A stretch of DNA of 27,705 nucleotides. Source: a virus. The DNA lies in IMG/VR virus record IMGVR_UViG_3300006790_001776, positions 1 to 27,705 of that record. The stretch is one strand, 5' to 3'. This document shows positions 1 to 24,390 of this stretch, piece after piece. Made by a program: the position numbers and the translations under genes. The notes beneath the pieces are model-generated. The model did no database searches. It was not told the DNA's origin and was given only the letters and a program-made list of their open reading frames with translations. Position 1 is the first letter of the stretch, and each line of letters opens with the position of its first letter.

Positions 1-627
1 AACCTTTGATGCAGTGGCCTGATCGACTTCGCCATTTTTCATGACTTCCAGGATCTGCTGATCCCGTTGTTGTTTAGGGAGGGCCATTAACTCTTCCGCC
101 GACGCCGCGACCTCTGGGATGAGGGATTTCAGGGTGTTGGCCACTTCCTGACGCTTCCCTGTCAGCGCTTGAGTAGCGGCAACAACCTCCGGAGCGTCAT
201 TGATGGAGAGCGTTCGAATCTTGTTCTCGTAGTCAGCGACCTGAGTCTGCAAGGCTTTAACTGCTTCTTCGTTGAATTGAGCTTTGTATTTCTCAAATTC
301 GCCGGAAATGCCTGTATGGTTGGCTTCCAAGGCGGCGTGCTGCGATTTTATTTCCTGCAGCCGTTTCAACGCCTCGTCTCTCGATTCACGCAACGCCTTG
401 AAATTCTGGTCCTTATCACCAGGTTCAGGGTCTTTGGTCGGAGGGTCCTTGGGCTTCGGATCATCCGGCGTAACAAATTTGACCTTAGGCTCTGGGGCCG
501 CGGGCGTCTTAGGTGTCGCCGGTGGGTCATCGGGTTTTGGAGGGTTTGTTGCTGGAGGTTGAGCGCCCGGTAAATCAATCCCGAGTTTTTGGCTCATCGG
601 TGTGCTGTCGTCTACTTCATCTGCCAT
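1..627 (-). CDS. Scaffold-like head assembly protein (partial, C-terminus beyond window)
   Basis: The ATG is at 627 and the frame stays open to base 1, giving at least 209 residues; the C-terminus lies outside the window. Residues about 20-75 are very rich in Pro, Lys and Asp (repeated PKPDDPP / PKDPPTKDPEPGD type), followed by a long Glu/Lys/Gln-rich helical stretch (RESRDEALKRLQEI, EEAVKALQTQVADYENKI) that looks like coiled coil. A disordered acidic N-terminus followed by coiled coil is typical of podovirus scaffolding proteins, which shape the procapsid and then leave. It starts 5 bases after the stop of the 632-1006 gene, so the two are probably co-translated. The major capsid gene would be expected just beyond the left edge. 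No strong Shine-Dalgarno is visible. The function is inferred from composition and position, not from a sequence match. Confidence 0.6.
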   Translation of the reverse strand, partial: MADEVDDSTPMSQKLGIDLPGAQPPATNPPKPDDPPATPKTPAAPEPKVKFVTPDDPKPKDPPTKDPEPGDKDQNFKALRESRDEALKRLQEIKSQHAALEANHTGISGEFEKYKAQFNEEAVKALQTQVADYENKIRTLSINDAPEVVAATQALTGKRQEVANTLKSLIPEVAASAEELMALPKQQRDQQILEVMKNGEVDQATASKV

Positions 628-631
628 AACG

Positions 632-1006
632 TTATTCTATTAGGGTGTCAGGATCTTGGAACTCGGGCTCTACCTCTTCGACTTCTTGGTTTACGTCTTG
701 CAATGACAGGAGCGTGTTCAGGCACGTCCGATACCCCTGCTCCATCATCATTAGGTTTGCTAACCTCTCTTTTGGTAGAATCGTCAGGTCGTGCATCCCC
801 AACTTCTGCAGCGGACTTTCCCGATCCAGAGTCTTCAGTATGGTCCGCAACAGAGGTTTTCCGAAGAGTTGCTTCGTCTGGTCCGACCATCCCGGAAGCG
901 TTCGCAATTGATTCGAGGGTATGTAGTCCTCGGGGACCTTCGATACTTTCAGCATCGGAGGTTCTTTCGGGGGCCGCCTGAAGAATTGTAGTAGTCGTTT
1001 CATCAT
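632..1006 (-). CDS. Small post-portal head-region protein, 124 aa, unknown function
   Basis: The frame starts at the tandem ATGATG at 1006 and ends 5 bases before the scaffold-like gene. The protein is basic at its N-terminus (KRLLQFFRRPPKEPP) and then mainly helical, with an acidic tail (QEVEEVEPEFQDPD). The composition looks like a genuine folded protein: QTKQLFGKPLLRTILKTL and a helix with LMMMEQGYRTCLNTL. Small proteins of this kind, with a helix ending in GYR-CL, often sit between the portal and scaffold/capsid genes in podoviruses and have no assigned role. It lies in a different frame under the last ~118 codons of the 648-2249 ORF. I favour this frame as the real coding sequence because the competing frame is low-complexity Ser/Asp/Arg there. 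The start has no clear Shine-Dalgarno. Confidence 0.7.
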   Translation of the reverse strand: MMKRLLQFFRRPPKEPPMLKVSKVPEDYIPSNQLRTLPGWSDQTKQLFGKPLLRTILKTLDRESPLQKLGMHDLTILPKERLANLMMMEQGYRTCLNTLLSLQDVNQEVEEVEPEFQDPDTLIE

Positions 1007-2249
1007 TTGAAATCTGAGTAGGCAACGTCATGGAAAGTAGGAAATCGTGAGGCAGCTTTTGCCAACCGCATTCACAATCATTAATCCCCATAACCACCAA
1101 CCATTCTTGCTTTGCTTCGTCGAATAGAGCGCCTCCAGGGAAGACGACTAGTGGGAACTCACCAATCCGCCTATTCTTCAAACTCCCCTTCAACATTGGC
1201 TCGGACGACATCCGAGTGATTCGAAACGGGGGTTTCGCCTCGAACGCGTAGGCACCCATGAAATAACGTCTTCGATTGTTCCACCAAGGTTGGGAAGAGT
1301 GGAAGAAACACCAGTATTCATCCCCTACCCTTACAGGATTTGTGCCCCCACGAGGCTCTCCCAAATCTCCACGCCATAATCGATTAGGCATTTCGGTCTT
1401 GTATTCCCGTTGAGGCGAGCACGCCGAGTCCATCTCAACCACTGTATGGGGTTGGTTTTGGTAAATCAGATGAGGTTTGTCGTCGTGAAAGAACCACGTC
1501 CAATTCTTTTCATGCCCTTTGTTCTCCCGAATCGACCGCCCGTTCACTCCGTATTCCGGATGGAGCGTTGTGAGGATGCTGAAATCGTTATCAAGAACGA
1601 CCATGGCTTGGTGAGCCCAAGTCTTCTTTTGGATGAAGTTCGTGCAGGTAAGCCATAACTTGTTGTCCTTAGCTCGTGCACCCGTTCTCCCGAGGTTCCA
1701 AATCCGAGGGTCCTCCCATTGCTGGTCAGCATTCGGGCCCTTCGATATCGGTATTTCACGCAACGGACCTGCGATCCGCGTATCGTCTAACGGTGCCCAA
1801 GCGATCGTCGAAAACGAATCGTAAGGAGGCGGAATGTTGGGGTTGAGGGTCACCCGCCTGACAAGCAAACGCCGCTGGCCTTCGACCTCGACAATCGTAG
1901 GGTTGAAAAACACGGTGTTGTTCGTCATGAATGGCAGGCCAAAATCGAAAATGCCTGCCTCGTAAGGTAACTGGTCTTGGAACGGTGGGCAGTCGGCGCT
2001 GTGCCCTTCCAAGATTTTCTGGATAGTCTCAGTCTCGACGGCTCGAAGGTTCTTAATGTCGTCGAAACACCGTTCTGCACTTCTCAACGCCTCTATGTAA
2101 GCGCCGTGGTGCTGTTCCATCTCCGCTTTGTGGTCGGCGATCTGGGCCATAAGCCCTGTAACTTGATCCATTTCAGGCACTATGATTTTTGCAATTGCAG
2201 ATCGGGCAACCCAACTCCAGTGTTTGAGCGTTTTTCGTATACTCGACAC
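648..2249 (-). CDS. GH130-like five-bladed beta-propeller glycosidase/phosphorylase
   Basis: Residues about 26-85 form a helical, coiled-coil-like N-terminal segment. From about residue 90 to 415 repeated propeller blades are visible: FFNPTIVEVEG-RRLLVRR, WEDPRIW (179-184), LIYQNQPH, RGGTNPVRVGDEYWCFFH, FPGGALFDEAKQEWLVVMGIND. This EDPRI and blade pattern is typical of the GH130 mannoside phosphorylase family and related propeller glycosidases. The start is GTG at 2249, 7 bases after a strong GGAGGAG, and overlaps the methyltransferase gene by 70 bp; the later ATG at 2171 has no comparable ribosome site. The last ~118 residues are low-complexity and read antiphase over the 632-1006 gene, so the functional domain probably ends near residue 415. 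It belongs to a glycan-modification cassette. The substrate is unknown. Confidence 0.75.
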   Translation of the reverse strand: MSSIRKTLKHWSWVARSAIAKIIVPEMDQVTGLMAQIADHKAEMEQHHGAYIEALRSAERCFDDIKNLRAVETETIQKILEGHSADCPPFQDQLPYEAGIFDFGLPFMTNNTVFFNPTIVEVEGQRRLLVRRVTLNPNIPPPYDSFSTIAWAPLDDTRIAGPLREIPISKGPNADQQWEDPRIWNLGRTGARAKDNKLWLTCTNFIQKKTWAHQAMVVLDNDFSILTTLHPEYGVNGRSIRENKGHEKNWTWFFHDDKPHLIYQNQPHTVVEMDSACSPQREYKTEMPNRLWRGDLGEPRGGTNPVRVGDEYWCFFHSSQPWWNNRRRYFMGAYAFEAKPPFRITRMSSEPMLKGSLKNRRIGEFPLVVFPGGALFDEAKQEWLVVMGINDCECGWQKLPHDFLLSMTLPTQISNDETTTTILQAAPERTSDAESIEGPRGLHTLESIANASGMVGPDEATLRKTSVADHTEDSGSGKSAAEVGDARPDDSTKREVSKPNDDGAGVSDVPEHAPVIARRKPRSRRGRARVPRS

Positions 2250-2836
2250 TCGCTTTCTCCTCCAATATCGCGAACCACATCACATCGGGACTCCAAGATA
2301 TGCCGAGCAGCGCTAGTGGTTTCCCAGTTGGCATCATCAAAGTAGATCAGCCCGCCCGGAATGACCTTGGGGAACCACAGAAGCACGTCTAAGCACGAGC
2401 TCCATGTCGAATGGTTCCCGTCAATGTGCAGGATGCCGATACCTGGCCGAATGTTCTTAAATGCATCAGCACTGGTACTGCGGTATAAATGAGTGCACCC
2501 CCCGATCCCCGCGACTGCAATCGCTGTCTTCGCCCAGTCGTAAACCTGGTTCAAATCTACCTTCGTCGTCCACCAGTCAAGGTTTTGACCCTCGGATTCG
2601 AAGGCAGCATCTTCCGCTTTATACGGGTCGATTCCGATCACTTCGCACTGACCTATCTTTTTCGCAGCCAATCCTAAGGCAGTGAGGCTCTTCCCCCCAA
2701 ATACGCCGATTTCCACAACCAGGTGAGGTTTGAGCGCACAGACTCGATCGAACATGTCAACGCCCTTGTCTACAGAGCACCAACCCTGAAGCTCTGGGTC
2801 GTTGAATCGCTCTAGTAAGAATGCTTTTTCGTCCAT
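2180..2836 (-). CDS. Class I SAM-dependent methyltransferase
   Basis: This 218-residue protein has the Rossmann methyltransferase signatures in order: motif I VVEIGVFGGKS (40-50) binds S-adenosylmethionine, VIGIDPY (67-72) supplies the acidic residue for the ribose, and LHIDGNHS (136-143) followed by PGGLIYFDD (160-168) matches the Methyltransf_24 / macrocin-O-methyltransferase-like group, whose members often methylate sugars or small molecules. It lies in a cassette with two glycosyltransferases, a B12 radical SAM protein and a propeller glycosidase, so a sugar O-methyltransferase role is reasonable but inferred. Its 3' end overlaps the next gene by 70 bp, and it begins only 3 bases after the stop of the 313-aa glycosyltransferase, consistent with one polycistronic transcript. 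Confidence 0.85.
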   Translation of the reverse strand: MDEKAFLLERFNDPELQGWCSVDKGVDMFDRVCALKPHLVVEIGVFGGKSLTALGLAAKKIGQCEVIGIDPYKAEDAAFESEGQNLDWWTTKVDLNQVYDWAKTAIAVAGIGGCTHLYRSTSADAFKNIRPGIGILHIDGNHSTWSSCLDVLLWFPKVIPGGLIYFDDANWETTSAARHILESRCDVVRDIGGESECRVYEKRSNTGVGLPDLQLQKS

Positions 2837-2839
2837 GGC

Positions 2840-3781
2840 TTAAAACAGTTCGGACAATGGAGTGCTGTCATACCAAAAAGTATGCGGACCGTTGATGGCT
2901 GGAAACTCACCGGTAGCAAGCACTTGTTCTCGGATCTCTCTGATGTGGGGTTGATGCGCATTAGCGGCTTCGCCCGGGCCTTCCTTCGTTAATCGTATGA
3001 GGGTGTGCGCAGCATCATCAGTGTTTTCACCTCGGCTCAAGCGAGGGAAAACATTATCCGGAATATGGTGCAGATCCTCGTCTTCCAAATGCTTCATCCC
3101 TGGGGCCAAGAACATCGGGCACCCAAGTTTTTCTAGAAGCATGCCGGTGATGTAGTCCTCCGTCCCCATACCGTTGGCCAGTTCCTCAAAGCCATTGATT
3201 TTGAGGAAAAAATCGACGGGAGCTACCGAGGAACCGTACAACCACTGCCCCCCTGCCGGATAAACCGAATCGTCTTTGGCTGCGCCGTACTTTGGAATTA
3301 GGGTTCCTGGACGGGAATCCTCGCTCGCGATCTTCTCATAAGTGGGGTTGCCATGCTCGTCGACGGAAAGGCCATTGACCTTTTTGTAGGTGCCGAGAAC
3401 CAACTGCCCCTTCTCGTGCGCGTAACGCACCCATTTCATATAGCCAGGCATCAAGACGGACAAGTCATCGACAAAGGCGATCGTTTTGCCTCGGGCATAG
3501 GCGATTGCGGTGTTGCGAGAATTAGCAGCGGCAAACCAATCACGTTTGGTCAAACGATGCGGTCCCTGCCACGCGCAGGGTTTTGGAGCGTAGACCTTGA
3601 GCCAGGCAGCCCCTTCGGCCTTAACCTTCTCCCTTACTTCTTCAGGGTGGAAGGCGATGCAGTAAACCTCGATTCCCGAAAAATCGTCTTCGAGTTCTCG
3701 CTTCAGCGAACGGATGAACCACTCGATTTTAGGGTCCTTCCGGTTAGTGATGTAGGCAATGGAAATGTCTGGTTCGCTCAT
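2840..3781 (-). CDS. GT-A fold glycosyltransferase (family 2-like)
   Basis: The N-terminus (PDISIAYITNRKDPKIEWFIRSL) is the first Rossmann strand and helix of a GT-A fold. NSRNTAIAYARGKTIAFVDD (88-106) matches the family 2 pattern NxGxxxAxGxxIxFxDDD, with the acidic pair D105-D106 expected to bind metal and nucleotide sugar. INGFEE...GMGTEDY (195-210) is the acceptor-side motif common in family 2 and galactosyltransferase-C type domains. There is no membrane segment, so it should be cytoplasmic. It overlaps the upstream 246-aa glycosyltransferase by 4 bp (ATGA), indicating translational coupling. The sugar and acceptor cannot be read from the sequence; virion protein, phage DNA or host surface glycan are all possible acceptors. 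Confidence 0.85.
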   Translation of the reverse strand: MSEPDISIAYITNRKDPKIEWFIRSLKRELEDDFSGIEVYCIAFHPEEVREKVKAEGAAWLKVYAPKPCAWQGPHRLTKRDWFAAANSRNTAIAYARGKTIAFVDDLSVLMPGYMKWVRYAHEKGQLVLGTYKKVNGLSVDEHGNPTYEKIASEDSRPGTLIPKYGAAKDDSVYPAGGQWLYGSSVAPVDFFLKINGFEELANGMGTEDYITGMLLEKLGCPMFLAPGMKHLEDEDLHHIPDNVFPRLSRGENTDDAAHTLIRLTKEGPGEAANAHQPHIREIREQVLATGEFPAINGPHTFWYDSTPLSELF

Positions 3782-4518
3782 TCTTCTGTGTTGCCCTCGT
3801 TACGTTTAAGGAGCGGCGCCCACTTATCTCGAAAAGCACTTTGCCCGTTCAGGTCTACCTTGATGTTTCGTTTCCCCATCGCAGTCACGATACCTCCGGT
3901 AGCATGATCGACGCGGGACAGATACGATATCCCCGCTTTCTGCTGTTGAGTCTCTAACCAAAACCAGTAATCACAGTCAGCCTCGTAAAGCGTGAATTGC
4001 TCATCCCACTTGTAAAGCGGCTGCGTCCGGAACAAGCCGACATGCATCAATGGGTTCGCGATTGGAACCATTCGATTCTCTTGTGCCGGGTGGCTTAAGT
4101 AGTTCTCACCCTCGTGAATAGGGCTGTAGGCAAACGGATGGACGGAAAAGAATTCTGGGTTGTCGCCTTGGCCCCACTGTTCATGAAGATAGTGCAACCA
4201 ATGTGGGTAGAAAATAACGTCAGCGTTTGAAAAGACGACGAAATCGAACTGGCTCTTAACCTTGTTGGCTCCGTAGTTACAAAGCTTGGTCCACGAGAAC
4301 GGTTCTACGGAATACTCGTAGGTGTAACCGCACTCCTCGACGGTTTCTCGCATCGCATCCTGTTGAGCCGGGTTTTCACAGGTGTTGTCGATGAAAAGCA
4401 GGTTCGCCTTGCAGGTATCCTTGTGGTACCTAACCGCATCCTGGCACATCTTTAACGTCGAGAAATTCATCGACGTTCCTGGCATGATTGTGCATGTGCG
4501 TTCTTCCGGCGATTTCAT
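3778..4518 (-). CDS. GT-A fold glycosyltransferase (second, shorter)
   Basis: A 246-residue protein with the features of a compact family 2-like transferase. ANLLFIDNT (38-46) is an early beta strand, TKLCNYGANKVKSQFDFVVF (77-96) resembles the N-x-G-x-x-x-A helix, and SNAD (97-100) sits where the DXD metal site normally falls, although it has Asn-Ala-Asp instead of Asp-x-Asp. A later WDEQFTLYEADCDYWFWL stretch matches the acceptor/base region (ED/EAD type motif). It overlaps both neighbours by 4 bp (ATGA at each junction), so it is coupled between the radical SAM gene and the other glycosyltransferase. The imperfect DXD could mean altered metal use; activity is inferred from the fold. Confidence 0.75.
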   Translation of the reverse strand: MKSPEERTCTIMPGTSMNFSTLKMCQDAVRYHKDTCKANLLFIDNTCENPAQQDAMRETVEECGYTYEYSVEPFSWTKLCNYGANKVKSQFDFVVFSNADVIFYPHWLHYLHEQWGQGDNPEFFSVHPFAYSPIHEGENYLSHPAQENRMVPIANPLMHVGLFRTQPLYKWDEQFTLYEADCDYWFWLETQQQKAGISYLSRVDHATGGIVTAMGKRNIKVDLNGQSAFRDKWAPLLKRNEGNTEE

Positions 4519-5924
4519 TGTCCCATGGATGATTCGAAGGCGCGTTGGTGAGGGGGTAAGGGAGGAAGGTTGAGTGTGGAGCGAAACGACCTCTCCATGT
4601 CGTCGCGCATCTCGACGAGCTCTTTTGCGTTTACGTAATCGGTAGCTACCGTAGACCGATAAGACCCTGGCACGCCTTTGTAAAAGCTCATGTCGCTATG
4701 GAAATCTACCGGTAGTTGGTACTGCTTATCGCCGTTCACTTCGTAGACCCAGCAGTCACCATTCCACTCAGCTTTGTCGTAGTACGGACTCCCTGGGTAC
4801 GGCGTAATGAGAGCCACGTCGACGTCGTCAGGTTTGACGTCTTCTACCCACCTAGATGTAATTATGTAGGTGCTAGTGTTTTCGCCCGGATGCCCCAACG
4901 ACATTAAAGCCTTGATCTTAATGCCGTTTCGAGAGCACCGCTCCACCACTCGCGTGTTGTCGTCTTTGGTCGCTTTCTTATTAATGTTCCGTAAAATCTT
5001 CTCGTCTCCAGATTCAAAACCGCACAGCAACGACACGAACCCCGTATGAGACATTAGTTCTGCCTGCTCATCAGAAAACAGTTCGGCTTTTATGAAACCT
5101 CGAAGTTTGAAATCAACTCCAAGATCAGATTGAAGATCCTGGATCGCATGGCATAGCTCATCCAACGACTTGTTCACGTTCAACTCGTCATCGTAAAACA
5201 TGAAACCCTTCACCTTGTAGGTGTCGTAGAGATGCCGCATTTCCTTGATTACCGATTGAGTAGAACGCCGTCTGATTCGACGGAACGAAGCCGAAGACCG
5301 ACCACCGCAAAACCCACAGTTGAACGGGCATCCTAGTTGAGACACGAGAGACATCGCACGTTCACCCTCTATCTCGAAATGGTAGGAATCGACGTCAACG
5401 AGGCTGCGGTCAGGGAATGGGAGGGAGTCGAGGTCTTTAACCCAATGCTCGCTTTTCGGGTCGTCAGCGTCCCATACTTGGGGAATTCCAGCACGATCAC
5501 TTCTGGTAGGCTTGCCCCCAAGTTTCTCGATCAACGATCGCATGGCTATTTCACCGTCGCCGACAACGATAACGTCGAACACGCCTTTCAACTCTTCCCA
5601 CAGAAGCGCCGCTCGTGTCGAACCAGCATCCATGGAGGCTTTCACCATGGTTACGTGGGGTCCCCCAATGACTTTAACCGAGTCGGCAAGCCATTCATGT
5701 TTAGCCATGTACATCACATAAGGCATTTGCGGAGTTGTGGCCGTAAACGCGTAGACATGGGAGTAGTTCGAACCCAGCTTGTCCATCTCGTGCTCCCCCC
5801 GCGGTTCGAAAACTTGGACGTCACACACGTCTTCCACCGCTGCCGCAACGCGCAAAACGCCTAACGACATGAAGACTCTTTGGTCTAAGAGAAAAGGACT
5901 TGGAGGGATGACAAACGTAACCAT
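4515..5924 (-). CDS. B12-binding domain radical SAM protein
   Basis: A 469-residue protein. The N-terminal ~130 residues look like a cobalamin-binding Rossmann domain (SVKVIGGPHVT at 82-92, VIVVGDGEIAM at 119-128), though the classical DxHxxG cobalamin ligand motif is not seen. The radical SAM core has the CxxxCxxC cluster motif CPFNCGFC (C199, C203, C206) that holds a 4Fe-4S cluster and cleaves S-adenosylmethionine, followed by ELNVNKSLDELC and LCGFESGDEKIL typical of the core barrel. Such enzymes perform methylations or rearrangements on unactivated carbons, including in sugar and antibiotic pathways. It is the first gene of the cassette, preceded by its own promoter-like site, and overlaps the next gene by 4 bp. 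The reaction is unknown. Confidence 0.9.
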   Translation of the reverse strand: MVTFVIPPSPFLLDQRVFMSLGVLRVAAAVEDVCDVQVFEPRGEHEMDKLGSNYSHVYAFTATTPQMPYVMYMAKHEWLADSVKVIGGPHVTMVKASMDAGSTRAALLWEELKGVFDVIVVGDGEIAMRSLIEKLGGKPTRSDRAGIPQVWDADDPKSEHWVKDLDSLPFPDRSLVDVDSYHFEIEGERAMSLVSQLGCPFNCGFCGGRSSASFRRIRRRSTQSVIKEMRHLYDTYKVKGFMFYDDELNVNKSLDELCHAIQDLQSDLGVDFKLRGFIKAELFSDEQAELMSHTGFVSLLCGFESGDEKILRNINKKATKDDNTRVVERCSRNGIKIKALMSLGHPGENTSTYIITSRWVEDVKPDDVDVALITPYPGSPYYDKAEWNGDCWVYEVNGDKQYQLPVDFHSDMSFYKGVPGSYRSTVATDYVNAKELVEMRDDMERSFRSTLNLPPLPPHQRAFESSMGQ

Positions 5925-5945
5925 ACCGACAACTAACCCAACGCC

Positions 5946-5984
5946 AAGCTACGCCAGGATTAGCCAGGTGTCAACTGTCTTACC
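5946..5984 (-). promoter_or_regulatory. Promoter-like site with shared element (copy 1) before the glycan cassette
   Basis: On the minus strand TTGACA (5974-5969) is followed after 17 bp by TAGCTT (5951-5946), a modest -10. Two bases before the -35 lies GGTAAGAC; the 12-bp element AACTGTCTTACC is read on plus at 5973-5984. The site fills the 55-bp gap between portal stop and the radical SAM start and would give a ~15-nt leader. The element recurs in seven other intergenic gaps. Confidence 0.6.
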
Positions 5985-8217
5985 CTAGAGCCGCTGCGTG
6001 CTTTTCAGCAGCTTGGCGCATGGTTTGTAGGTGCCGCTCCTCTTTGTGACGCAACTGCTGTTCAGCTTTCAACTCACGCTCTTGGATCTTCTGCTGAGTG
6101 TTAGCGGCCTTGATTTGCACCGAAGGGTCTAATCCGGATTCGATTCCCGCAACCTGTTGTTGGGCTTCGACTTGCGCCTCCTGGGCTTGTCGACGATCCT
6201 GTAAAATCCCCTCCAATTGACCCAAGTGGTTTTCAAGTGCCTTCAGTTGTTCTTGAACCTGTTGGCCTTCGGCTGCGCGCAATGGGTCGGACAAAAGTGG
6301 GCCTAGATGCGCCTGTGCGACATGGCTTATCACTGAAGAAACGAACACGAAGATTTCTTCCAAATCACCCTCTTGAGTAGCCGTTTGCATCGCCTCTGCG
6401 GCCGCTGACAAATGCACCTCAGAATGGGTGAGGTGGTTATCCGTCCCCACGGGCTGAACCGGCATGCCATCACGAAGCGACGTATTTTCGAAAGCTGCGA
6501 TACGTTCTTGGTCCTGGACGTTGGTGGAAGACGTCGACTTGGGGTTGTAGCGGACCACCTGCTTATTCCCAGCCTTGGAAGCGATGATGTCGTCGATTAA
6601 CTGCTGTCGCCCAGTTTCTGGTAGGCTCGGCCCCACCATGCTCGCCAATTCCGACAACGACTGCTGACGTAAGAACGAAGAGCCTTGCCCCACTGTCCGA
6701 CTTGCTACAACCTTGCAGGACGCGGCGACCTCAAGAGGAACCCCTTGTTGCTGAAGTTTCAGTTGGAATTCTTGGGCTAATTTGGTTGCACGGCTCGTGA
6801 CCGCTTGCTCGACCATCGCTCGTCTGAATCGTTCAGCATACCAGGCGTCCAGTTGCTCGAAATACCGGATAATAGCCGTTTTCGTAAGGACAGCTTGTTG
6901 GTTGGCCCGAAATGCCACTTCGGTGGCACTCGCGTGATTACCCTGCGCCCTCGGGGGGTCCGGCTTGTATTGCGCGATATTTGATTGGGCGCTTTGATCC
7001 AGTGATCGGCTAACCGCGTCAGCGGCTTCGATCGCCCCTGACGTGTTGAACGAGAATGGCTCGATATTTGGCCGCCACATCGTGTAAGGGCCTAGCTGAA
7101 GCTGGGCGGACGACATGTTGGACACGTCGCCATCGGTAGTCCGGACATGGATCGACGACATCTGGAATGCCGCATCCACCTTCTGGTTCTCTAACCGCTC
7201 GCGCTGAACCAGGAGATTGTACATCCGAACCCCAAGGCCCTTGATCGAATGGTAGGTCCCGTTACCGTGATTGAGGATGAAGGGACCGGTGAACTGCTGC
7301 CAATTCGCATACTTCCGCTGTTTGCGGTATAGGAATTTCGGGATGTCGGTTCCCAACTCCACCCACACCTCAGAGATCCCGCCGTACTCGTCCGTCGGGT
7401 CCTCTGGAAACTCTCGGAACAGTAGTTTTCCCACTTGGACAGTGTGGTCGGGCTGTGTGAAGGCAAGATCGTTGTTCCGAATCTGATCTTGGAGCTTGTA
7501 CCACTTGTTTTCATCCGAATACTCCTGGTCCCCAAAGTTCGCTCGGATGAGAGCGTCTTTTACAGCCTCGACGTCCCACCCTACAGCGCTGGCCGCCTCG
7601 GGATCCCGGATGAACTTGTAAAGCTGGCTCAAGGTGTAGTTTTCTACGATGAGAAGCTTGGTCCATTCCTCCATGTTCGATCGCTCGTTAGGTGAGAGGA
7701 TGAAATCACGATGGAGAATCGCCTTACTGGTCCAGTCCGTCGAATTCTCGAATACCATGGGGCCAGAGCCGTAAGCGGTCATTTCATGGATGCTCTTTTG
7801 GATGTCTGCATCCATCCGAGTATCCTTCTCCTGAAGGGTTTGGAATTCCGTAGTGAGAATTCGGCTCCACTGCGTGTCTTGCTCAGGGTTGCCAGTATCG
7901 CACGTGACTTCGGCAAACGTGTGGACGGAAGAAAAAAGATCGTAGTATCCGGTGTGCGCCGTCTCTAGAAACGTGAGTGCCTGGCCGGAATTAAAGTTCG
8001 ACCGATAACGCTGGCCAGCCTGGGCTAACCGTGAGGGGTCGTAAGGCGGATTCCCATCAATCAACCCTCGGACTTTCGTATCGCGCTGAGCCCTAGCGGA
8101 ATTATCCGAAATCATCGAGCTAGCGAGGTGACGCGCTTCGATGGGGTCTGTGAGACGAGACGCTGGAAGAGATCCAGATTCTGTCAGGCCGCTTAACTGT
8201 TGGTCAGGAGATGCCAT
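5980..8217 (-). CDS. Portal (head-tail connector) protein
   Basis: At 745 residues, lying downstream of terminase and upstream of a scaffold-like gene, this is the dodecameric ring through which DNA is packaged and ejected. The arrangement follows the podovirus head-tail connector family: an N-terminal region with YRSNFNSGQALTFLETAHTGYYDLF, a mixed alpha/beta wing and clip, a central FHRDFILSPNE-like segment, FEELDAWYAERFRRAM-like stem helix (region about 450-470) and a long Gln/Glu-rich C-terminal coiled coil (about 640-745, QAQEAQVEAQQQV, KAEQQLRHKEERHLQTM) expected to form the barrel. Length and position fit the family well. The ATG at 8217 is preceded by a promoter/operator-like site (copy 2). 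No unusual base composition relative to neighbours is apparent. Confidence 0.88.
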   Translation of the reverse strand: MASPDQQLSGLTESGSLPASRLTDPIEARHLASSMISDNSARAQRDTKVRGLIDGNPPYDPSRLAQAGQRYRSNFNSGQALTFLETAHTGYYDLFSSVHTFAEVTCDTGNPEQDTQWSRILTTEFQTLQEKDTRMDADIQKSIHEMTAYGSGPMVFENSTDWTSKAILHRDFILSPNERSNMEEWTKLLIVENYTLSQLYKFIRDPEAASAVGWDVEAVKDALIRANFGDQEYSDENKWYKLQDQIRNNDLAFTQPDHTVQVGKLLFREFPEDPTDEYGGISEVWVELGTDIPKFLYRKQRKYANWQQFTGPFILNHGNGTYHSIKGLGVRMYNLLVQRERLENQKVDAAFQMSSIHVRTTDGDVSNMSSAQLQLGPYTMWRPNIEPFSFNTSGAIEAADAVSRSLDQSAQSNIAQYKPDPPRAQGNHASATEVAFRANQQAVLTKTAIIRYFEQLDAWYAERFRRAMVEQAVTSRATKLAQEFQLKLQQQGVPLEVAASCKVVASRTVGQGSSFLRQQSLSELASMVGPSLPETGRQQLIDDIIASKAGNKQVVRYNPKSTSSTNVQDQERIAAFENTSLRDGMPVQPVGTDNHLTHSEVHLSAAAEAMQTATQEGDLEEIFVFVSSVISHVAQAHLGPLLSDPLRAAEGQQVQEQLKALENHLGQLEGILQDRRQAQEAQVEAQQQVAGIESGLDPSVQIKAANTQQKIQERELKAEQQLRHKEERHLQTMRQAAEKHAAALG

Positions 8218-8227
8218 TACGAGTTCG

Positions 8228-8243
8228 ACGCGTCTTACGTCAA
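8228..8243 (-). promoter_or_regulatory. Shared regulatory element (copy 2) before portal
   Basis: ACGCGTCTTACG lies at 8228-8239 on plus. On minus, TTGACG (8243-8238) overlaps its end and reads into GTAAGACGCGT, so the -35-like box and the element share bases. No convincing -10 is seen before the portal ATG at 8217. The last base of the element differs from the consensus (G for C). Confidence 0.5.
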
Positions 8244-8278
8244 GAAAAAGCTCTCAAAACAGACCTGAATAAGCAAGG

Positions 8279-8755
8279 TCAAACCGCAGCCCACCGGCCG
8301 TCAGGGCACTGCTCGGTAGGAGACCAAAGCTTGAGGCCCGTGCACCCGCATTTCCCACATGCTTGAACGCCAAACCGATTTTCTGACGTGTAATACGGGC
8401 ACTGACGACAGATCTCACGACGCTGCAAAAGCACCTCCTCGCTAACCGTTTTCAACCCTGCTGAAACCCACTCCCTTAAAGCATGAGTCGCCCGAGCTAG
8501 TAGCTCTTTCTTGGTCGGCGGGGTGTGGTCCTGACACCACCTGGACTGAGACCCTAGTTCGATGCCGTCACAAATCTGATCCTGAATCTCGTGTTCGAGA
8601 TTTGCCGGTGCCTTTTTCTTATTGTTGAGGTAGGTGTTTCGTACCTCCTGCACCAGAAACGCCCATTGAAGCTGCTTTACGGGAATGCCTAGCTCAGGGA
8701 TGGTGTATTGCCACCCTCCTGGAGGAACCTTGTTTAGTCGTTGAAGGATCTTCAT
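8279..8755 (-). CDS. Zinc-ribbon protein, 158 aa, between terminase and portal
   Basis: The N-terminal half is helical and charged (VKQLQWAFLVQEVRNTYLNN). The C-terminal ~45 residues carry clustered cysteines, CRQCPYY (C116, C119), ACGKCGC (C133, C136, C138) and EQCPDGRW (C150), spaced as a zinc ribbon; CPDGRW at the very end is characteristic of small phage zinc-ribbon proteins. It overlaps the terminase gene by 4 bp (ATGA), so it is translationally coupled to it and placed before portal. A role in packaging, or in binding nucleic acid or terminase, is an inference from position only. A 62-bp gap separates it from portal. Confidence 0.75.
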   Translation of the reverse strand: MKILQRLNKVPPGGWQYTIPELGIPVKQLQWAFLVQEVRNTYLNNKKKAPANLEHEIQDQICDGIELGSQSRWCQDHTPPTKKELLARATHALREWVSAGLKTVSEEVLLQRREICRQCPYYTSENRFGVQACGKCGCTGLKLWSPTEQCPDGRWAAV

Positions 8756-10569
8756 ATTGCCATCTCGTAATCGGGGTCTTCCAGGCCGTTCAAATCGTAA
8801 ATATCGCCTGCTTGCTCGACCTGTTCATCCCACTCCTTATTCGTATCGTTGACGTGCGCTGCGGTGGAGGGCATGACGCCGATCTGCCGGGCCACCTCGG
8901 TAAGCACCGCTACCGTGTCAGCCATGTCAGGTGACCGCGTGTAACGAGCTTTCATCTCGTCTTTGGTCTCTAACCGGATCTTGTTCTTTTTGACCTCGTA
9001 CTCACGATTGCAAAACTCGTCGATGGTAGGGGTGTCGAGTCCTCTCAATTGCCCCGATTCCAAGAACTCCTTAGACTGAAACCACAATTCGGTGACTCTA
9101 CGGTCGTAAACATCTTTGCATGCTCGGTCGTCGGCAGCAGACACGTTCCGGTCACTGGGAGCGCCTCCAAACTCGACACCGATCACCCGCTTACTCCACG
9201 TCTTCCGAAGAATGTCGTAAAGGCCCCCACCCTCGCCCGTCGCATCAAGACCGAAGTTCTGTGGCTCACAACCCTCTTTCTTCGCCCAAGCGATGATTTG
9301 GTCCGCTAACTGGTAATGGATCGGGTAGTCCTCGGCCTGCGCCATGTCGAGTTCCAAAGATTCGACCGCTCGAAGTTCGATCCCCAAAAACCCCTTTTCC
9401 TGCACCTCACCAACCTCGGCAAATCGGATGATAGCTCTGTCCCCTCCACCGAATGCCGGATCGCATGCACCGATCACCGTTTTCCGTGCGCCCGTAAAAA
9501 GGTGGCCGTGCTTCGCATCCATCTTGTTGACGAGGCCGATATCCCAGACGTTTAGGGTCAGACCCGATGGAGGCCAAAAGCCTTTGTAGAATTTCCAATA
9601 CAGCGGACTGTTAGCCCCCAACCGCTGCCTCGCGTTCTCCATCTGCTTCGACGTAACCAAATACGGGAACTTGGTCACTTTGTCGTAAGCCATGTTCGGT
9701 GACTTATCCCCATCAAACCGAACGCAGATGCCGTGGTCTCCCGTGATCTGCATCACCGTCTCCCACTCGTCGTCTTCAAGGGTTACGCTATTCCACCCAT
9801 CCTTGGGTTCACAGAATCGGCCATGAGGATCGCCTGTCTGTGACTGAGGGTTTCCGATCACGAGCATCTGGAATTGCTCATTTGCTGCCATATTGGCAGT
9901 TGCTTCGAAAATACCTTCAGGCGTGGCAGTAGCCTCGTCGATGATAAGGAGAACACGCTTAGCATGGATGCCCTGAATCATCGCGCATGCATTCGCCGTG
10001 TTACCGTCCTTGACCGCTAACCCGAAAATCGCGTGTTTGAAATCAGCCTCCCGAGAACACCAGGTCATCCGGCTATCGACCATGTTTCCCGGCTTCTCCG
10101 GGAGCTCGGAATACATCGCTTGGATGTAACTCCAGACACGTTTTCGAAGCATCTCCTTAGTGGTCGTGGTAAGGACCACCGTCGAATTCCAGGGATCACA
10201 TAACCACCAGATTACCGCGTACTCTGCAGCGGTGAACGTCTTGCCTGAAGCCGCACAACCTGTCCAAGCGGTGGCCTTGTAATCGAGCAACGACCGGATC
10301 TGACGCTCACGCCATGGATGCCACTCGTGAGACGGGAACAGGTGGTCTGCTATGTATTTGTAATGGTCAAATCGGGTGCAGCCAGCCTTCTGAAGCCCCT
10401 GATAATTGCCCAGAGAAAGGAAGTGGTAATTCAGTTGTGACAACTCATGGTCGAGAGGAAATCCAAAAGTCTGGACATCCATTTCACCCGCTATTTGCGC
10501 CTCTATCGCGTCGATTAACCGGCCTGCTTCCTTCTTCGAAGCTCTAGCTCTTTGCTGTTTATCGGGCAT
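8752..10569 (-). CDS. terL: Terminase large subunit
   Basis: The 605-residue protein has both functional halves of a DNA-packaging motor. The ATPase has Walker A GCAASGKT (104-111) and Walker B VLLIIDEA (206-213, with catalytic Glu212), followed by a coupling-type segment LVIGNPQ. The RuvC-like nuclease has IGACDPAFGGGD (367-377, D370), NFGLDATGEGGG (438-449, D442) and SPDMADTV (546-553, acidic D548/D551), the three acidic positions expected to hold metal. Length matches the family (about 450-650). Start ATG at 10569 with AAGAG a few bases upstream. The gene is first of the leftward head operon and divergent from a plus-strand island. Its small-subunit partner is not adjacent; the HTH protein at 24719-25279 is a candidate. 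Confidence 0.95.
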   Translation of the reverse strand: MPDKQQRARASKKEAGRLIDAIEAQIAGEMDVQTFGFPLDHELSQLNYHFLSLGNYQGLQKAGCTRFDHYKYIADHLFPSHEWHPWRERQIRSLLDYKATAWTGCAASGKTFTAAEYAVIWWLCDPWNSTVVLTTTTKEMLRKRVWSYIQAMYSELPEKPGNMVDSRMTWCSREADFKHAIFGLAVKDGNTANACAMIQGIHAKRVLLIIDEATATPEGIFEATANMAANEQFQMLVIGNPQSQTGDPHGRFCEPKDGWNSVTLEDDEWETVMQITGDHGICVRFDGDKSPNMAYDKVTKFPYLVTSKQMENARQRLGANSPLYWKFYKGFWPPSGLTLNVWDIGLVNKMDAKHGHLFTGARKTVIGACDPAFGGGDRAIIRFAEVGEVQEKGFLGIELRAVESLELDMAQAEDYPIHYQLADQIIAWAKKEGCEPQNFGLDATGEGGGLYDILRKTWSKRVIGVEFGGAPSDRNVSAADDRACKDVYDRRVTELWFQSKEFLESGQLRGLDTPTIDEFCNREYEVKKNKIRLETKDEMKARYTRSPDMADTVAVLTEVARQIGVMPSTAAHVNDTNKEWDEQVEQAGDIYDLNGLEDPDYEMAI

Positions 10570-10575
10570 CAGCTC

Positions 10576-10617
10576 TTGACAAACACGCGATCGTGTTGGA
10601 CTTGTCTTACCGTAAGA
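10576..10617. promoter_or_regulatory. Divergent control region with two palindromes (element copy 3)
   Basis: Between terminase and the plus-strand island there are 70 bp. On plus, TTGACA (10576-10581) is followed by an inverted repeat AACACG-CGAT-CGTGTT (10582-10597), then the shared element ACTTGTCTTACC (10600-10611), which itself is part of the perfect palindrome TCTTAC-C-GTAAGA (10605-10617). Stacked dyads in a divergent gap are typical of operators. The -10 for either direction is not clear. Confidence 0.6.
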
Positions 10618-10639
10618 AAAATAAACTTGCGAGACGAAA

Positions 10640-10870
10640 ATGAATGCTATGCCCCTCCTAGCTCACTCCGGAGAATTCGGACCTGCCTCAGCAGCAATGG
10701 CGATCCTTCTATGCGCCATGTTGATCCACTTCGGAGCCACGAACGCTCCTCGTATCTGGAGCATACAAACTCTTCTAATAGACACGGCCCTCTCAATCCT
10801 CCCTGTCGGATTAGGAATAGGAGGGCTCATCACAATCGCAGTGTGGAGTCTTAAAACATGGGCACAATGA
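10640..10870 (+). CDS. Small two-TM membrane protein, holin-like
   Basis: This 76-residue protein has two hydrophobic segments, about 17-33 (SAAMAILLCAMLIHFG) and about 44-70 (LLIDTALSILPVGLGIGG then LITIAVW), with a short polar turn between them and a short C-terminal tail ending KTWAQ. Size and topology fit a class II type holin, which would make the membrane lesion that releases the lysin, but no lysin is adjacent, so the role is inferred. A GAGACG lies just before the ATG at 10640; a second ATG (codon 4) is possible. It overlaps the next gene by 13 bp. With that gene it forms a plus-strand pair inside an otherwise minus-strand structural region. Confidence 0.65.
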   Translation: MNAMPLLAHSGEFGPASAAMAILLCAMLIHFGATNAPRIWSIQTLLIDTALSILPVGLGIGGLITIAVWSLKTWAQ

Positions 10871-11277
10871 ACATTTTCGACACCCCGATCCATAGACGAA
10901 TCCACAAACTGGCTGACACGTCATCCAAACGCCTCAAATCCCTTCAAGAGCAATTCAAAGACGTGAGCCTTGAGGGTTCAGTCCTACTCGACGACCCCAA
11001 AGATCCCGTCGATATCGCGATCGAACACGAAGAGCTAGGAGCTGAAATCCAAGACGAGGCCTATTACCTCAACATCTTGGAGGAAACAGAAACTCAGAAG
11101 GACCCGTGGGCGTTCATTAATTCAAAAATCAAGGACTTCGAACTCATGCTACCTCTACTCGTTGAGAGCCCACAGGCCCGAGAAATCATCAAAAAGGCCC
11201 TAACCACTTACCAAAAGATCAGAGACGGAATTCAAGACCTTGCGCCTGAGGGTGAGGAGCTGGAACGGGAGGAGTAA
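10858..11277 (+). CDS. Acidic helical protein, 139 aa, unknown function
   Basis: Almost entirely predicted helix and rich in Glu/Asp: KLADTSSKRLKSLQEQF, HEELGAEIQDEAYYLNIL, then KIKDFELMLPLLVESPQ and a C-terminus EGEELEREE. No cysteine and no membrane segment, so it is likely soluble and possibly coiled coil. The ATG at 10858 is preceded by GGAG with a 9-base spacer and lies inside the end of the holin-like gene, so the two are coupled. The next gene is convergent and its coding ends about 20 bp away; I see no strong terminator in that gap. Not recognised. It may be a regulator or partner of the membrane protein. Confidence 0.65.
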   Translation: MGTMNIFDTPIHRRIHKLADTSSKRLKSLQEQFKDVSLEGSVLLDDPKDPVDIAIEHEELGAEIQDEAYYLNILEETETQKDPWAFINSKIKDFELMLPLLVESPQAREIIKKALTTYQKIRDGIQDLAPEGEELEREE

Positions 11278-11295
11278 GACGCAAACTCACATCTA

Positions 11296-11599
11296 TTATG
11301 AGAATGCCTTCATCAACAAACTCAGCAACCCTGCCACTGCCCGGTGACCGGCGAGGTCGTCGGGGTCGGGCTTGTCAGGGAGTAGCAACAACGTTGTTTC
11401 GTGCTTCTTCAACTCTAGCCACACTTCGAGGTAGTCTAGGGCGATGGTACGGCAAACTACTGGGCTCCTCGGAAAAAAAGAACTGCGAAGCCTTTCTGAG
11501 CTTCCTTACACGTCTGTACAGACTATTCCACGGCTCTTTAGTGGAATTCGGACCGATCAACCGCGACCAAAAACGCATGTCTTCGCCGAAACTTCCCAT
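11296..11599 (-). pseudogene. Small tail-operon gene split by an apparent +1 frameshift
   Basis: Frame A starts at ATG 11599 (MGSFGEDMRFWSRLIG...) and reads protein-like sequence to a run of seven T (minus strand, about 11480-11474), then becomes Arg/Pro-rich and stops at 11375. Frame B, shifted +1, opens just before the same T-run without any ATG and reads a convincing end: ALDYLEVWLELKKHE, LLLLPDKPDPDDLAGH, LLSLLMKAF, then TAA TAG at 11298-11293. Joining them at the T-run gives about 100 residues. Either programmed +1 frameshifting, a one-base insertion mutation, or a homopolymer sequencing error explains it. It is the last gene of the tail/ejection operon, 40 bases after the 1017-aa gene. 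Function not recognised. Confidence 0.6.
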
Positions 11600-11638
11600 G
11601 TAGGGTACGTAGCTTCGCTGCTCAAGATGTGCAAGTAA

Positions 11639-21968: not shown

Positions 21969-23063
21969 TTAATCCACTGCATACGGAGGCTTGGCCCCCT
22001 TGTTAAACGGTCCAAAATCCTTTGGCGATTGCCACTGACCGTCAATTTGCCAGTCTGTCTGCCTCCCCCTTGGCACACCCTGAATCACGTTGCCAATCAA
22101 GCCATTCTCATTGTCCTTACCCCGCCAAGCCACACCGAGGTCTAGGTCTGTGAAATGGTTGCCTATGATCGCCACTCGATGGCCACTTCCGATAATGCCC
22201 GCTTGATCGCCTGGCTGAATCGATTCTCCTCTTCTCGCCCCCTTGAACGAGTTGCCCTGGACGAAAAGGTTGCGGCAGTTGCGGGCCTCTACCCCCAGGT
22301 TCATGTAGACAAACTTGTTATCCTTGATAAAGCAATTGGTCGCCCCTGATACCGATACCGAAGCGCTAAAGCCCTCAAACTGGTTGTTCCGGATATCCAC
22401 CTCTTTCAAAGTATGGCCGCCGCAAGGCTGCGTCAAAATCGGGCCAAAGGGGGTATCCGCTTGATACGCATTCACATGCTGAACGCCAGGGCAGTTTCTC
22501 GCATTTACCCTGATAACATGGTTTTTTGTGAAATGCCAGTTAGCCAAATCACCCCAAAGTTGAACCGGAGAAATCGTATCGGATGCTCCAACGAATTTGA
22601 CCCCATGCACATGGCCTCTCACCATATGGAAAGGCATGTCTGGGCTCTGCAAGTTGCCAAGCACTCGGAGACAGCCTTGGCCCTTAAACCGGATATTCGT
22701 CCCACCCATCCCTTTACCCGGCCCAACCAAGCTCACACATTGTGGCAGGTATATCGGCTTATCCACCTCTAGCTCAAAGGCAGGCAGTTGCACCACTGGC
22801 GCAATGGCAACCTCGCTCTTTGGCCAGGCATGGGGATCGCCTTGGAAAGCGGGGTAGTTGACTTTGGGGTCTGGTTCCCACAACTTCGTGGCGTTAAGCG
22901 CCTCTTGCCAAGCATGCTCAATCGCGTCTTGTAATTCAGACGCCTCTCTGACCGGCACCCTAACCAATTGATCTTGGTCGAGTGGGAATCGGTAGTGCTC
23001 TCCATTGGCTCCCCCTATGGTTAAAGCCTGAGGTTGGATAGTCGTTATTGTTGCTGTGCTCAT
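21969..23063 (-). CDS. Right-handed beta-helix tailspike-like protein, 364 aa
   Basis: From about residue 95 the sequence shows the rung pattern of a right-handed parallel beta-helix: repeated short strands with N-x-F/I turns, such as VHGVKFVGASD, VDIRNNQFEGFSASV, NCFIKDNKFVYMNLGVEARN, NLFVQGNSFKGARR, HRVAIIGNHFTDLDLGV and NGLIGNVIQGV. These are typical of NosD/pectate-lyase type repeats and of phage tailspikes that bind or cut surface polysaccharide. The N-terminal ~90 residues would attach to the virion or form the cap. Catalytic residues cannot be assigned by eye, so depolymerase activity is uncertain. The gene stands apart from the fibre operon, with its own terminator downstream and five bases from the 93-aa gene upstream. 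Confidence 0.7.
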   Translation of the reverse strand: MSTATITTIQPQALTIGGANGEHYRFPLDQDQLVRVPVREASELQDAIEHAWQEALNATKLWEPDPKVNYPAFQGDPHAWPKSEVAIAPVVQLPAFELEVDKPIYLPQCVSLVGPGKGMGGTNIRFKGQGCLRVLGNLQSPDMPFHMVRGHVHGVKFVGASDTISPVQLWGDLANWHFTKNHVIRVNARNCPGVQHVNAYQADTPFGPILTQPCGGHTLKEVDIRNNQFEGFSASVSVSGATNCFIKDNKFVYMNLGVEARNCRNLFVQGNSFKGARRGESIQPGDQAGIIGSGHRVAIIGNHFTDLDLGVAWRGKDNENGLIGNVIQGVPRGRQTDWQIDGQWQSPKDFGPFNKGAKPPYAVD

Positions 23064-24024: not shown

Positions 24025-24390
24025 TTAACTAATCTGACCAGGAGATGGGGACGGTGAATACTCTTGCGTCGCCGGAAACGCCTCCTTCGCCTGAGCAACC
24101 GCTTCTTCCGCTGATATGGGTGAAGGGCTTGGTGAATACTCGGGCGCGGGAGATGGGGAATGCTGCCCTTCAACAAACTTCCCAATCAACTGATTGGCTG
24201 CCGCGTCCTTACCCGCACTGTCCTGCGAAATCAATCGATAGATGTTCAGCGCCACCTCACGGGAAACATCAATCCGTCCCTCCGCTCGCAATGCTGCGTT
24301 ACTACTCTGGTCTCTGTGTTCACGCTCAAGATCTGCGGCGTTCGCCTCTAAGCCTTGAGCCAATAAGTTTAATTCCTTTATTAAAGCCAT
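24025..24390 (-). CDS. Helical protein with EYSPSPSP repeats, 121 aa
   Basis: Residues 1-75 are helical and charged (LNLLAQGLEANAADLEREHR, REVALNIYRLISQDSAGKDA), followed by a tail with two exact EYSPSPSP blocks and a related HSPSPAP. The repeats are encoded by similar DNA, suggesting duplication, and look like a flexible or disordered linker. The ATG at 24390 is preceded by AGAAAGAGAG. It lies downstream of regulatory copy 7 and upstream of a hairpin terminator, so it may be a single-gene transcript. Not recognised; a small virion-associated or regulatory protein is possible. Confidence 0.6.
   Translation of the reverse strand: MALIKELNLLAQGLEANAADLEREHRDQSSNAALRAEGRIDVSREVALNIYRLISQDSAGKDAAANQLIGKFVEGQHSPSPAPEYSPSPSPISAEEAVAQAKEAFPATQEYSPSPSPGQIS

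Follow-up and report, generated by a model that had tools for sequence, protein, structure and literature searches.

The window, a 27,705-nucleotide stretch of DNA, stems from an uncultivated, podovirus-like phage group and carries on its minus strand, at 648-5924, five close-packed genes that an ORF check placed between the portal and scaffold genes (Table 1). The first-pass annotation had described a coupled set of a B12 radical SAM enzyme, two glycosyltransferases, a methyltransferase and a GH130-like propeller at this site. That description held: all five ORFs were found at the given place and their families were supported by domain searches, weakly in the case of the two glycosyltransferases, whose matches were GT2-like. 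The radical SAM and glycosyltransferase A genes overlap by 4 bp, as do those of glycosyltransferases A and B, a 3 bp gap separates glycosyltransferase B from the methyltransferase, and the methyltransferase and propeller genes overlap by 70 bp. Together the glycosyltransferase pair, the radical SAM enzyme, the methyltransferase and the propeller make up a glycan-modification cassette within the head block, as had been proposed. Membrane helices were absent from every cassette protein, the highest 19-residue hydropathy mean being 1.48. A promoter-like site of its own, also claimed for the cassette, was not borne out, as a consensus scan of positions 1-11700 found no sigma-70-like site on the minus strand and one site in all, against 7.1 expected by chance. 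A perfect TTGACA lies at 5974-5969, where the -10 hexamer at matching distance reads TAGCTT.

Table 1. Cassette genes and adjoining head genes in the window, with the basis for each assignment.
Feature	Position	Strand	Basis
Radical SAM enzyme, probable B12-binding class, 469 aa	4515..5924	-	PF04055 2.6e-21
Putative glycosyltransferase A, GT-A-like, 246 aa, NADV motif	3778..4518	-	PF00535 0.08
Glycosyltransferase B, GT-A-like, 313 aa	2840..3781	-	PF13641 0.0066, PF00535 0.011
SAM-dependent methyltransferase, Methyltransf_24/CmcI-like, 218 aa	2180..2836	-	PF13578 1.8e-17
GH130-fold five-bladed propeller, 533 aa	648..2249	-	PF04041 5.9e-5, profile, predicted fold
Portal protein, 745 aa, bounds exchanged block on 5' side	5980..8217	-	AlphaFold model, podophage portal fold
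Scaffold-like protein, truncated at contig end, 3' of propeller	1..627	-	Homology, make-up and position
Conserved small Cys-rich gene between terminase and portal	8279..8755	-	phrog_13558 2.7e-7
Terminase large subunit	8752..10569	-	phrog_2 1.7e-18

The flanking genes were identified by different means. Searches of Pfam, PHROGs, PDB sequences and named phages gave no match for the portal gene. Its identity was instead confirmed by predicted fold, the AlphaFold model (pLDDT 79) matching podophage portals, best that of Pan3 (1.1e-12) and also those of T7 and N4. The scaffold ORF has a homologue in L007 (5.7e-8) that immediately precedes the major capsid protein (MCP) gene, and this homology, a low-complexity, coiled-coil make-up and its position point to a scaffold function. 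The MCP, which had no match in PHROGs or PDB sequences, was assigned from position. The order of terminase, small Cys-rich gene and portal is conserved among relatives.

Enzymes of the cassette

The radical SAM protein carries the CxxxCxxC motif of class B radical SAM enzymes at residues 199-206, with C199, C203 and C206 invariant across six phage homologues. In NCBIfam it comes closest to B12-binding radical SAM families (HpnJ 3.6e-33, PhpK and BchE), and profile matches were also obtained to TsrM (1.2e-6) and to AprD4 (9.6e-18), an enzyme not known to need B12. The N-terminal cobalamin-binding domain was matched weakly (PF02310, 0.02); NCBIfam matches of the BchE/HpnR type extend into the N-terminal part, all of them under cut-off. 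Within this phage group the gene is present in the window only, and named phages yielded one distant match (SF3), in a different context.

Glycosyltransferase A, assigned tentatively, shares 43% identity with an L010 cassette gene. Glycosyltransferase B further matched EpsD (2.4e-4) and chondroitin synthase (0.009); its VDDLS and GxED motifs are invariant, D105, D106, E208 and D209 being kept in an alignment of 11 lineages. A search of named phages with this protein gave no match; apart from the SF3 match, named phages yielded only distant GT4 matches. Soluble, phage-encoded glycosyltransferases, one mark of a phage virion glycosylation system, were found in the window and in its relatives; an initiating protein glycosyltransferase was not identifiable. 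The methyltransferase is of the type most common in the relatives' cassettes, where its cluster (c1) accounts for 62 ORFs.

The propeller protein has an N-terminal helix (27-86) and a disordered basic tail (425-533). Its Pfam GH130 score of 22.6 bits falls under the cut-off of 26, and we therefore call it GH130-fold and not a GH130 member; propellers of relatives L010 (34.4 bits) and L149 (35.2 bits) score above the cut-off. A PDB profile search retrieved Lin0857 (9.5e-13), and the AlphaFold model matched GH130 structures best, with Teth514_1788 at 2.2e-11 and a TM-score (target) of 0.73. Among solved structures, beta-1,2-mannoside phosphorylases are nearest. N116, R131, E179, D180, Y329, F370 and D391 are invariant in 11 aligned propeller homologues and, when placed by alignment to Lin0857 and mapped from there to BT3780 by spacing, correspond to the BT3780 mannose-site residues N74, R89, E141, D142, Y302, F344 and D363 (PMC4599007). 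The catalytic Asp (EDPR or YDPR) and the mannose-site residues that characterise GH130 are accordingly retained. GH130 phosphorylases have three basic residues that bind phosphate, and the mannosidases a Glu pair; the position of Lin0857 R246 is taken by E, Q, D or H in the phage propellers, whose middle region does not align with known structures.

The propeller is fused to a GT-A-like domain in L008, L010 and L058 and to a GT4 domain in L149. Its nearest viral folds are proteins of pithovirus, EsV-1 and a mimivirus relative, and giant-virus structural relatives are fused to fucosyltransferase, LicD or pyruvyltransferase domains. Named phages gave no match for the propeller. The only cellular-type matches were two genome contigs, of which L212 is clearly phage DNA inside a MAG and L213 is bacterial-looking, and therefore no cellular pathway can be inferred for the propeller.

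Exchange of the enzyme block between portal and propeller

Portal, propeller and scaffold occur together in 69 distinct viral loci; the propeller sits between the other two in 66 of these and follows the scaffold in three. Usually a small gene alone was said to fill this gap, and relatives without the cassette indeed have just one gene of 91-110 aa there. The idea of the five genes as a unit did not hold. Where the cassette precedes the scaffold the propeller is constant, but the radical SAM gene is confined to the window and the glycosyltransferase and methyltransferase combinations of relatives differ. Replacement genes of recognised family are glycosyltransferases or methyltransferases, joined in sister groups by an NDP-sugar epimerase/C-methyltransferase. 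In sister groups lacking the propeller, the interval from scaffold to MCP holds glycan genes.

Exchange was evaluated in related group B, as relatives within the window's own subgroup, at 46% portal identity, are too diverged for breakpoints to be placed on DNA. Among 117 pairs of loci with portals at least 95% identical in nucleotide sequence, the cassette was alignable over less than 20% of its length in 69 and over at least 80% in 46, with two pairs in between. The same pairs served as controls: at least 80% was alignable in 80/80 pairs for the terminase, 117/117 for the portal, 117/117 for the propeller and 89/93 for the scaffold. Breakpoints fall a few bases from the portal stop and the propeller start. 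The scoring was performed on DNA, without ORF calls inside the cassette, because cassette types defined from ORF clusters arose in part from greedy picking of ORFs (c3-c6 versus c3-c4, for instance) and were abandoned. The whole block of enzymes separating portal from propeller is exchanged, while the propeller stays. Cassette genes showed dN/dS of 0.05-0.10, indicating purifying selection. Scattered or decaying copies in relatives had been named as evidence against the first proposal; the opposite was found, co-location with head genes being conserved and under selection.

Target of the cassette

We consider it probable that the cassette is an exchangeable, serotype-like virion-glycosylation locus in the head operon, most likely acting on the capsid or another head protein. 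Presumably co-expressed with the head genes, it would act on the virion while the head is being made. In the host cytoplasm the soluble glycosyltransferases would lengthen a glycan whose sugars the methyltransferase would O-methylate; in the window phage, the radical SAM enzyme may also modify them, by radical methylation or deoxygenation. The propeller, the constant part with its GH130/GT108 fold, is probably responsible for adding or rearranging a mannose-like sugar common to all glycoforms. Since the enzymes are exchanged as one block, a swap between related phages would alter the glycan coat in the manner of a bacterial serotype change. The selective reason might be evasion of host defences, antibodies or predators that recognise surfaces, or the tuning of adsorption.

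The cassette may lie in the head operon for reasons of timing, or because the site tolerates recombination, and not because its target is in the head. If position set late timing only, the enzymes could modify the host surface late in infection, remodelling LPS or capsule for superinfection exclusion or release. The GT25-like genes of relatives belong to an LPS-biosynthesis family, the block exchange resembles that of O-antigen and serotype-conversion loci, and radical SAM homologues L003 and L004 lie in large polysaccharide-type clusters. We nevertheless regard a host-surface target as unlikely, as the cassette proteins have no membrane helix, neither a flippase nor a lipid-linked initiating glycosyltransferase accompanies them, and remodelling would be of little use so late. 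Nor did a link between cassette type and distal tail fibre emerge, in a comparison of 43 pairs with few shared fibres and hence low power.

A recombination-tolerant spacer could harbour selfish or neutral cargo, and such a hotspot would likewise yield all-or-none exchange at fixed boundaries. Cargo of this kind is improbable considering that the content comprises glycan enzymes wherever a family is assignable, the genes are under purifying selection, the same propeller partner is kept on the 3' side, and propeller-free sister groups still have their glycan genes at another head site.

Modification of phage DNA, with bases glycosylated and methylated against restriction, appears slightly less probable again. 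Phage glycosyltransferases are often DNA-modifying (PMC12619734), and phrog_2675, matched by the methyltransferase, carries a DNA methyltransferase annotation. Against this, the methyltransferase is of a type found in small-molecule and sugar methylation, the cassette sits among head genes and not replication genes, and PF00303, the thymidylate-synthase-family hydroxymethylase, was absent from all 14 related records searched, which measure 25-61 kb and may be incomplete. We know of no DNA role for a GH130 propeller. The absence of PF00303 and the lack of membrane helices lower the likelihood of DNA and host-surface targets.

Although its nearest solved structures are mannoside phosphorylases, the propeller is very unlikely to be an auxiliary metabolic gene of that activity for host mannan metabolism during infection, being present in single copy per record with no adjoining transporter, epimerase or mannanase, fused to glycosyltransferases in several phages and placed beside variable glycosyltransferase and methyltransferase genes in a head operon. 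A literature search on GH130 as an auxiliary metabolic gene returned, in the parts of the sources available, nothing concerning a phage GH130.

Virion glycosylation can be taken further to serotype switching within one phage species, with the propeller as a glycosyltransferase-type enzyme common to phages and giant viruses, a combination that we propose tentatively. In such switching an unchanged capsid protein could receive different methylated glycans, modified in the window phage by the radical SAM enzyme.

The usual picture of a phage particle is one of naked protein. The block swap amid unchanged neighbours, between phages whose portal and capsid proteins are nearly identical, suggests that these phages change the sugars on their own particles, and some environmental phages may diversify their coat by recombination as bacteria do their serotypes. 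Close natural pairs that share the surrounding head genes but not the cassette offer a simple genetic test of the purpose of phage glycans. The results further suggest that annotation of GH130-type genes as mannan-degrading auxiliary metabolic genes is best avoided beside phage head genes, and that phages and giant viruses have glycosylation machinery connected by one propeller fold.

Comparison with known systems

The first-pass annotation knew of no characterised phage system with this gene set, which stands for the exact set but not for the arrangement. Synechococcus phage S-CBS4 (NC_016766) is annotated with portal, GT4, galactosyltransferase, SAM methyltransferase, head protease and major head protein in that order, placing two glycosyltransferases and a methyltransferase between portal and head genes. 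Neither a propeller nor a radical SAM enzyme appears in this annotation, and the functions of the genes are predicted.

Mycobacteriophages Che8 and Rita are reported to bear glycans on capsid and tail subunits (Freeman et al. 2023, as cited in PMC11256854 and PMC12619734). Phage-encoded glycosyltransferases are common to both systems. The Maravista glycosyltransferases are described as lying near the genome 3' end, not between portal and scaffold (PMC11256854), and mycobacteriophage glycosylation, as far as covered in PMC11256854 and PMC12619734, is described with no GH130-fold partner and no block exchange.

With the GH130 enzymes Lin0857, Teth514_1788 and BT3780 the phage propeller shares the five-bladed fold, EDPR with the catalytic Asp, an N..R spacing of 15 and the sugar-site Tyr, Phe and Asp. 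It differs in being 12-18% identical to them, with the window copy below the Pfam cut-off, in having an extra N-terminal helix or GT domain and in a context that is biosynthetic instead of degradative. The fold is also that of the GT108 mannosyltransferase-phosphorylases of Leishmania (6q4w, 6q4x, 6q50; 3.5e-7), which illustrate that mannosyltransferase activity is possible for a GH130-like propeller (PMC8950772). This structural match is weaker than that to GH130, and GDP-Man-dependent mannosyl transfer, the GT108 reaction, would be hypothetical for the phage protein.

Giant viruses are described as glycosylating autonomously (PMC4691112). They likewise encode glycan machinery and have propeller-fold relatives, several fused to glycan enzymes. 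Their hosts are eukaryotic, and to our knowledge no exchangeable cassette occurs at a head-gene site in them.

Bacterial O-antigen and serotype loci and gtr cassettes are blocks of sugar genes exchanged whole between constant flanks. The phage cassette differs from gtr serotype conversion in lacking a membrane glycosyltransferase or flippase and in sitting among head genes; like these loci, it is swapped whole between flanks that stay constant.

The head block and its five inserted genes

The window, an IMG/VR viral record of 27,705 bases, carries the five genes described in the first-pass annotation, all on the minus strand and tightly spaced, in the transcription order terminase, small Cys-rich gene, portal, the five cassette-region genes and scaffold-like gene. 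Within the set, neighbouring genes overlap by 4 bp at 4515-4518 and at 3778-3781 and by 70 bp at 2180-2249, 3 bp separate the pair at 2837-2839, and the first gene alone is set off, standing 55 bp from the portal. Domain matches were found to Radical_SAM (2.6e-21), Methyltransf_24 (1.8e-17), GH130 (5.9e-5) and, for the two glycosyltransferases (GTs), GT2-like families (0.007 and 0.08). A promoter of their own had been proposed for the set, which was not borne out by a consensus scan of the minus strand over 1-11700 that returned zero sigma-70-like sites.

Features of the window
Feature	Position	Strand	Basis or remark
terminase large subunit	10569-8752	-	phrog_2, 1.7e-18
small Cys-rich gene	8755-8279	-	between terminase and portal
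portal	8217-5980	-	predicted fold
five-gene set	5924-648	-	radical SAM, GT A, GT B, methyltransferase (MT), propeller
propeller	2249-648	-	GH130 fold
scaffold-like gene	627-1	-	incomplete, runs off contig end
probable tail spike	21969-23063		NosD/right-handed-helix-like protein, PF05048 2.9e-6
121-aa protein	24025-24390		EYSPSPSP motifs repeated close to C-terminus

Zero sequence matches to the portal and capsid proteins of the phage group were found in PHROGs or solved structures, and zero to the portal in Pfam or named phages. A portal structure predicted from 20 homologues (pLDDT 79) matched podophage portals, with Pan3 best (1.1e-12), followed by Pa223, Carin1, N4 and T7. As this fold agrees with the terminase match and with the order terL-portal-scaffold-MCP (terminase large subunit to major capsid protein) mapped in relatives, the placement of the five genes inside the head block stands. 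The MCP of the relatives was assigned by position only.

Gene order and block exchange in relatives

Metagenomic viral contigs were scanned with portal and propeller alignments by means of short peptide patterns, the best 80 loci being kept. For the portal this gave 49 loci, and for the propeller the best 80 of 149 and the best 80 of 158, with some overlap between the sets. Purpose-built profiles served to map the gene order. Among the distinct loci listed with all three genes on the same strand, the propeller was found between portal and scaffold in 66 of 69 and past the scaffold in 3. The window's nearest relatives among the loci listed (L007, L060 and L061) have the order portal-MT-propeller-scaffold-MCP, with GT B following the portal in L007. 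In group B, a large group distinct from the window's own subgroup, the order is portal-(GT25, MT, other GT/MT)-propeller-107 to 129 aa gene-scaffold, while three further loci (L008, L010 and L058) read, within contig reach, portal-small gene-scaffold-(GT-propeller fusion and further GT/MT genes)-MCP. The portal-scaffold slot of L061 holds MT and propeller only, and GT25-like and GT B genes were seen at a second site (16-19.7 kb), far downstream of its head genes.

Most portal relatives without a propeller have a 91-110 aa gene alone between portal and scaffold. In several of them, glycan genes of other kinds lie between scaffold and MCP, namely GT4 and an FkbM methyltransferase in L012, and GT-like genes, methyltransferases, an NDP-sugar (NAD) epimerase and a sugar C-methyltransferase in L034 (12261-17701; likewise L033). 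Propeller presence mapped on the portal tree with 3 changes, against 11 with labels shuffled, and all 13 rows of the window's clade (support 95/98) have a propeller.

In loci with near-identical portals, the genes of the portal-propeller interval differed while both flanks were constant. This was measured at the DNA level in 117 locus pairs with portals at least 95% identical, the cassette of enzymes between portal and propeller being counted as alignable at 80% identity or above. Less than 20% of the cassette was alignable in 69 pairs, at least 80% in 46 and an intermediate share in 2. The 69 exchanged pairs, which draw on 30 loci, had a median portal identity of 96.5% against 96.6% in the 46 shared-cassette pairs, and a propeller identity of 95.4% against 96.6%; MCP identity was about equal with the cassette shared or not (96.8 and 96.1%). 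In the same pairs terL aligned in 80/80, portal and propeller each in 117/117 and scaffold in 89/93. Homology ends a few bases from the portal stop codon and resumes at the propeller start: L195 and L130, for instance, are 97.7% identical through base 7246 (portal stop 7241) and align once more from 9749 (propeller start 9737). Exchange was shown for group B, which is made up of closely related phages (the 163 propeller sequences fell into 15 clusters at 70% identity) and lies outside the window's own subgroup.

Cassette type showed no association with the distal part of the fibre-like gene next to it, in a test of low power (odds ratio 0.86, p = 1). Fibre-like genes of group B (such as L077 13929-16811) are convergent with the scaffold gene, conserved at the N-terminus (NDGTGTPLRTAF) and highly variable in length (276-960 aa). 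Cassette genes are under purifying selection, with median dN/dS of 0.067 for the MT, 0.082 for the GT25-like gene and 0.048 for the second MT, alongside 0.096 for the propeller and 0.060 for the portal.

The propeller and the radical SAM protein

An 11-homologue propeller profile retrieved GH130 mannoside phosphorylases from the PDB (Lin0857, 9.5e-13), and a structure model of the propeller, with a pLDDT of mostly 75-95 in the core, matched Teth514_1788 (2.2e-11) and, more weakly, Leishmania GT108 mannosyltransferases (3.5e-7), same-fold enzymes of which some have both transferase and phosphorylase activity (PMC8950772). Counterparts of the residues that a study of GH130 BT3780 describes as important (PMC4599007), transferred via Lin0857 with the step to BT3780 made by spacing, are invariant (N116, R131, E179, D180 (EDPR), Y329, F370 and D391), and the N116-R131 spacing of 15 is that of BT3780. 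In L008, L010 and L058 the propeller is joined to what reads as a GT-A-like domain, one without a Pfam match, and in L149 (8630-11041), an otherwise different phage on a 93-kb contig, it is fused to GT4 (PF04041 8.8e-9, PF00534 1.6e-4) and has GT B and GT25-like genes in its vicinity. Among viral proteins, the folds closest to the propeller come from giant viruses and uncultured phages, and several of the giant-virus entries bear the names fucosyltransferase, LicD or pyruvyltransferase. Together, fold, residues, GT fusions and these viral structural relatives suggest that the propeller may be an active sugar-transfer enzyme in virus-encoded glycan machinery; a mannan-degrading role was set aside in favour of this reading.

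In the window's subgroup, propeller residues 425-533 form a long disordered tail with a basic end (RRKPRSRRGRARVPRS; KRSRKRAAKAS in L007), missing from GT-fused propellers. A homologue was also seen on a bacterial-looking contig (L213 9371-10417, from a MAG labelled Bordetella parapertussis), apparently frameshifted, preceded by a SEC-C-like motif (PCPCGSGLRYKSCC) and adjoining genes for a short-chain dehydrogenase and an aldose-epimerase-like protein.

Within the phage group the radical SAM gene was found in the window only, among loci listed. Homologues at 44-49% identity occur in unrelated phages. The L002 copy comes after a GT2 and three methyltransferase genes, in a region that lies downstream of what look like head genes, and those of L003/L004 are part of large GT and nucleotide-sugar gene clusters. 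Solved relatives include AprD4 (9.6e-18), which acts in deoxygenation of an aminoglycoside sugar, and TsrM (1.2e-6), a tryptophan C-methyltransferase. Sugar methylation or deoxygenation is a likely role.

Proposed virion glycosylation and known systems

The best-supported account is that of a virion glycosylation locus, which would be expressed together with the head genes and in which the GT/MT enzymes would be the exchangeable part and the propeller the constant part. The target may be the capsid, as suggested by the position of the locus, the unchanged MCP and the precedent of virion glycosylation in mycobacteriophages, as cited in PMC11256854 and PMC12619734. Glycosylation of DNA as in T4 is argued against, since a thymidylate-synthase-type base hydroxymethylase was found in 0 of 14 related, possibly incomplete, records. 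Serotype conversion of the host is likewise argued against by the cassette proteins of the window, in which no membrane helices were found.

In Synechococcus phage S-CBS4, genes for a GT4, a galactosyltransferase and a SAM methyltransferase lie between portal and head protease, and GT/MT genes in the head block are thus not unique to this phage group. Neither the GH130-fold partner nor the exchange of the whole block at fixed boundaries was found in named phages or the literature searched.
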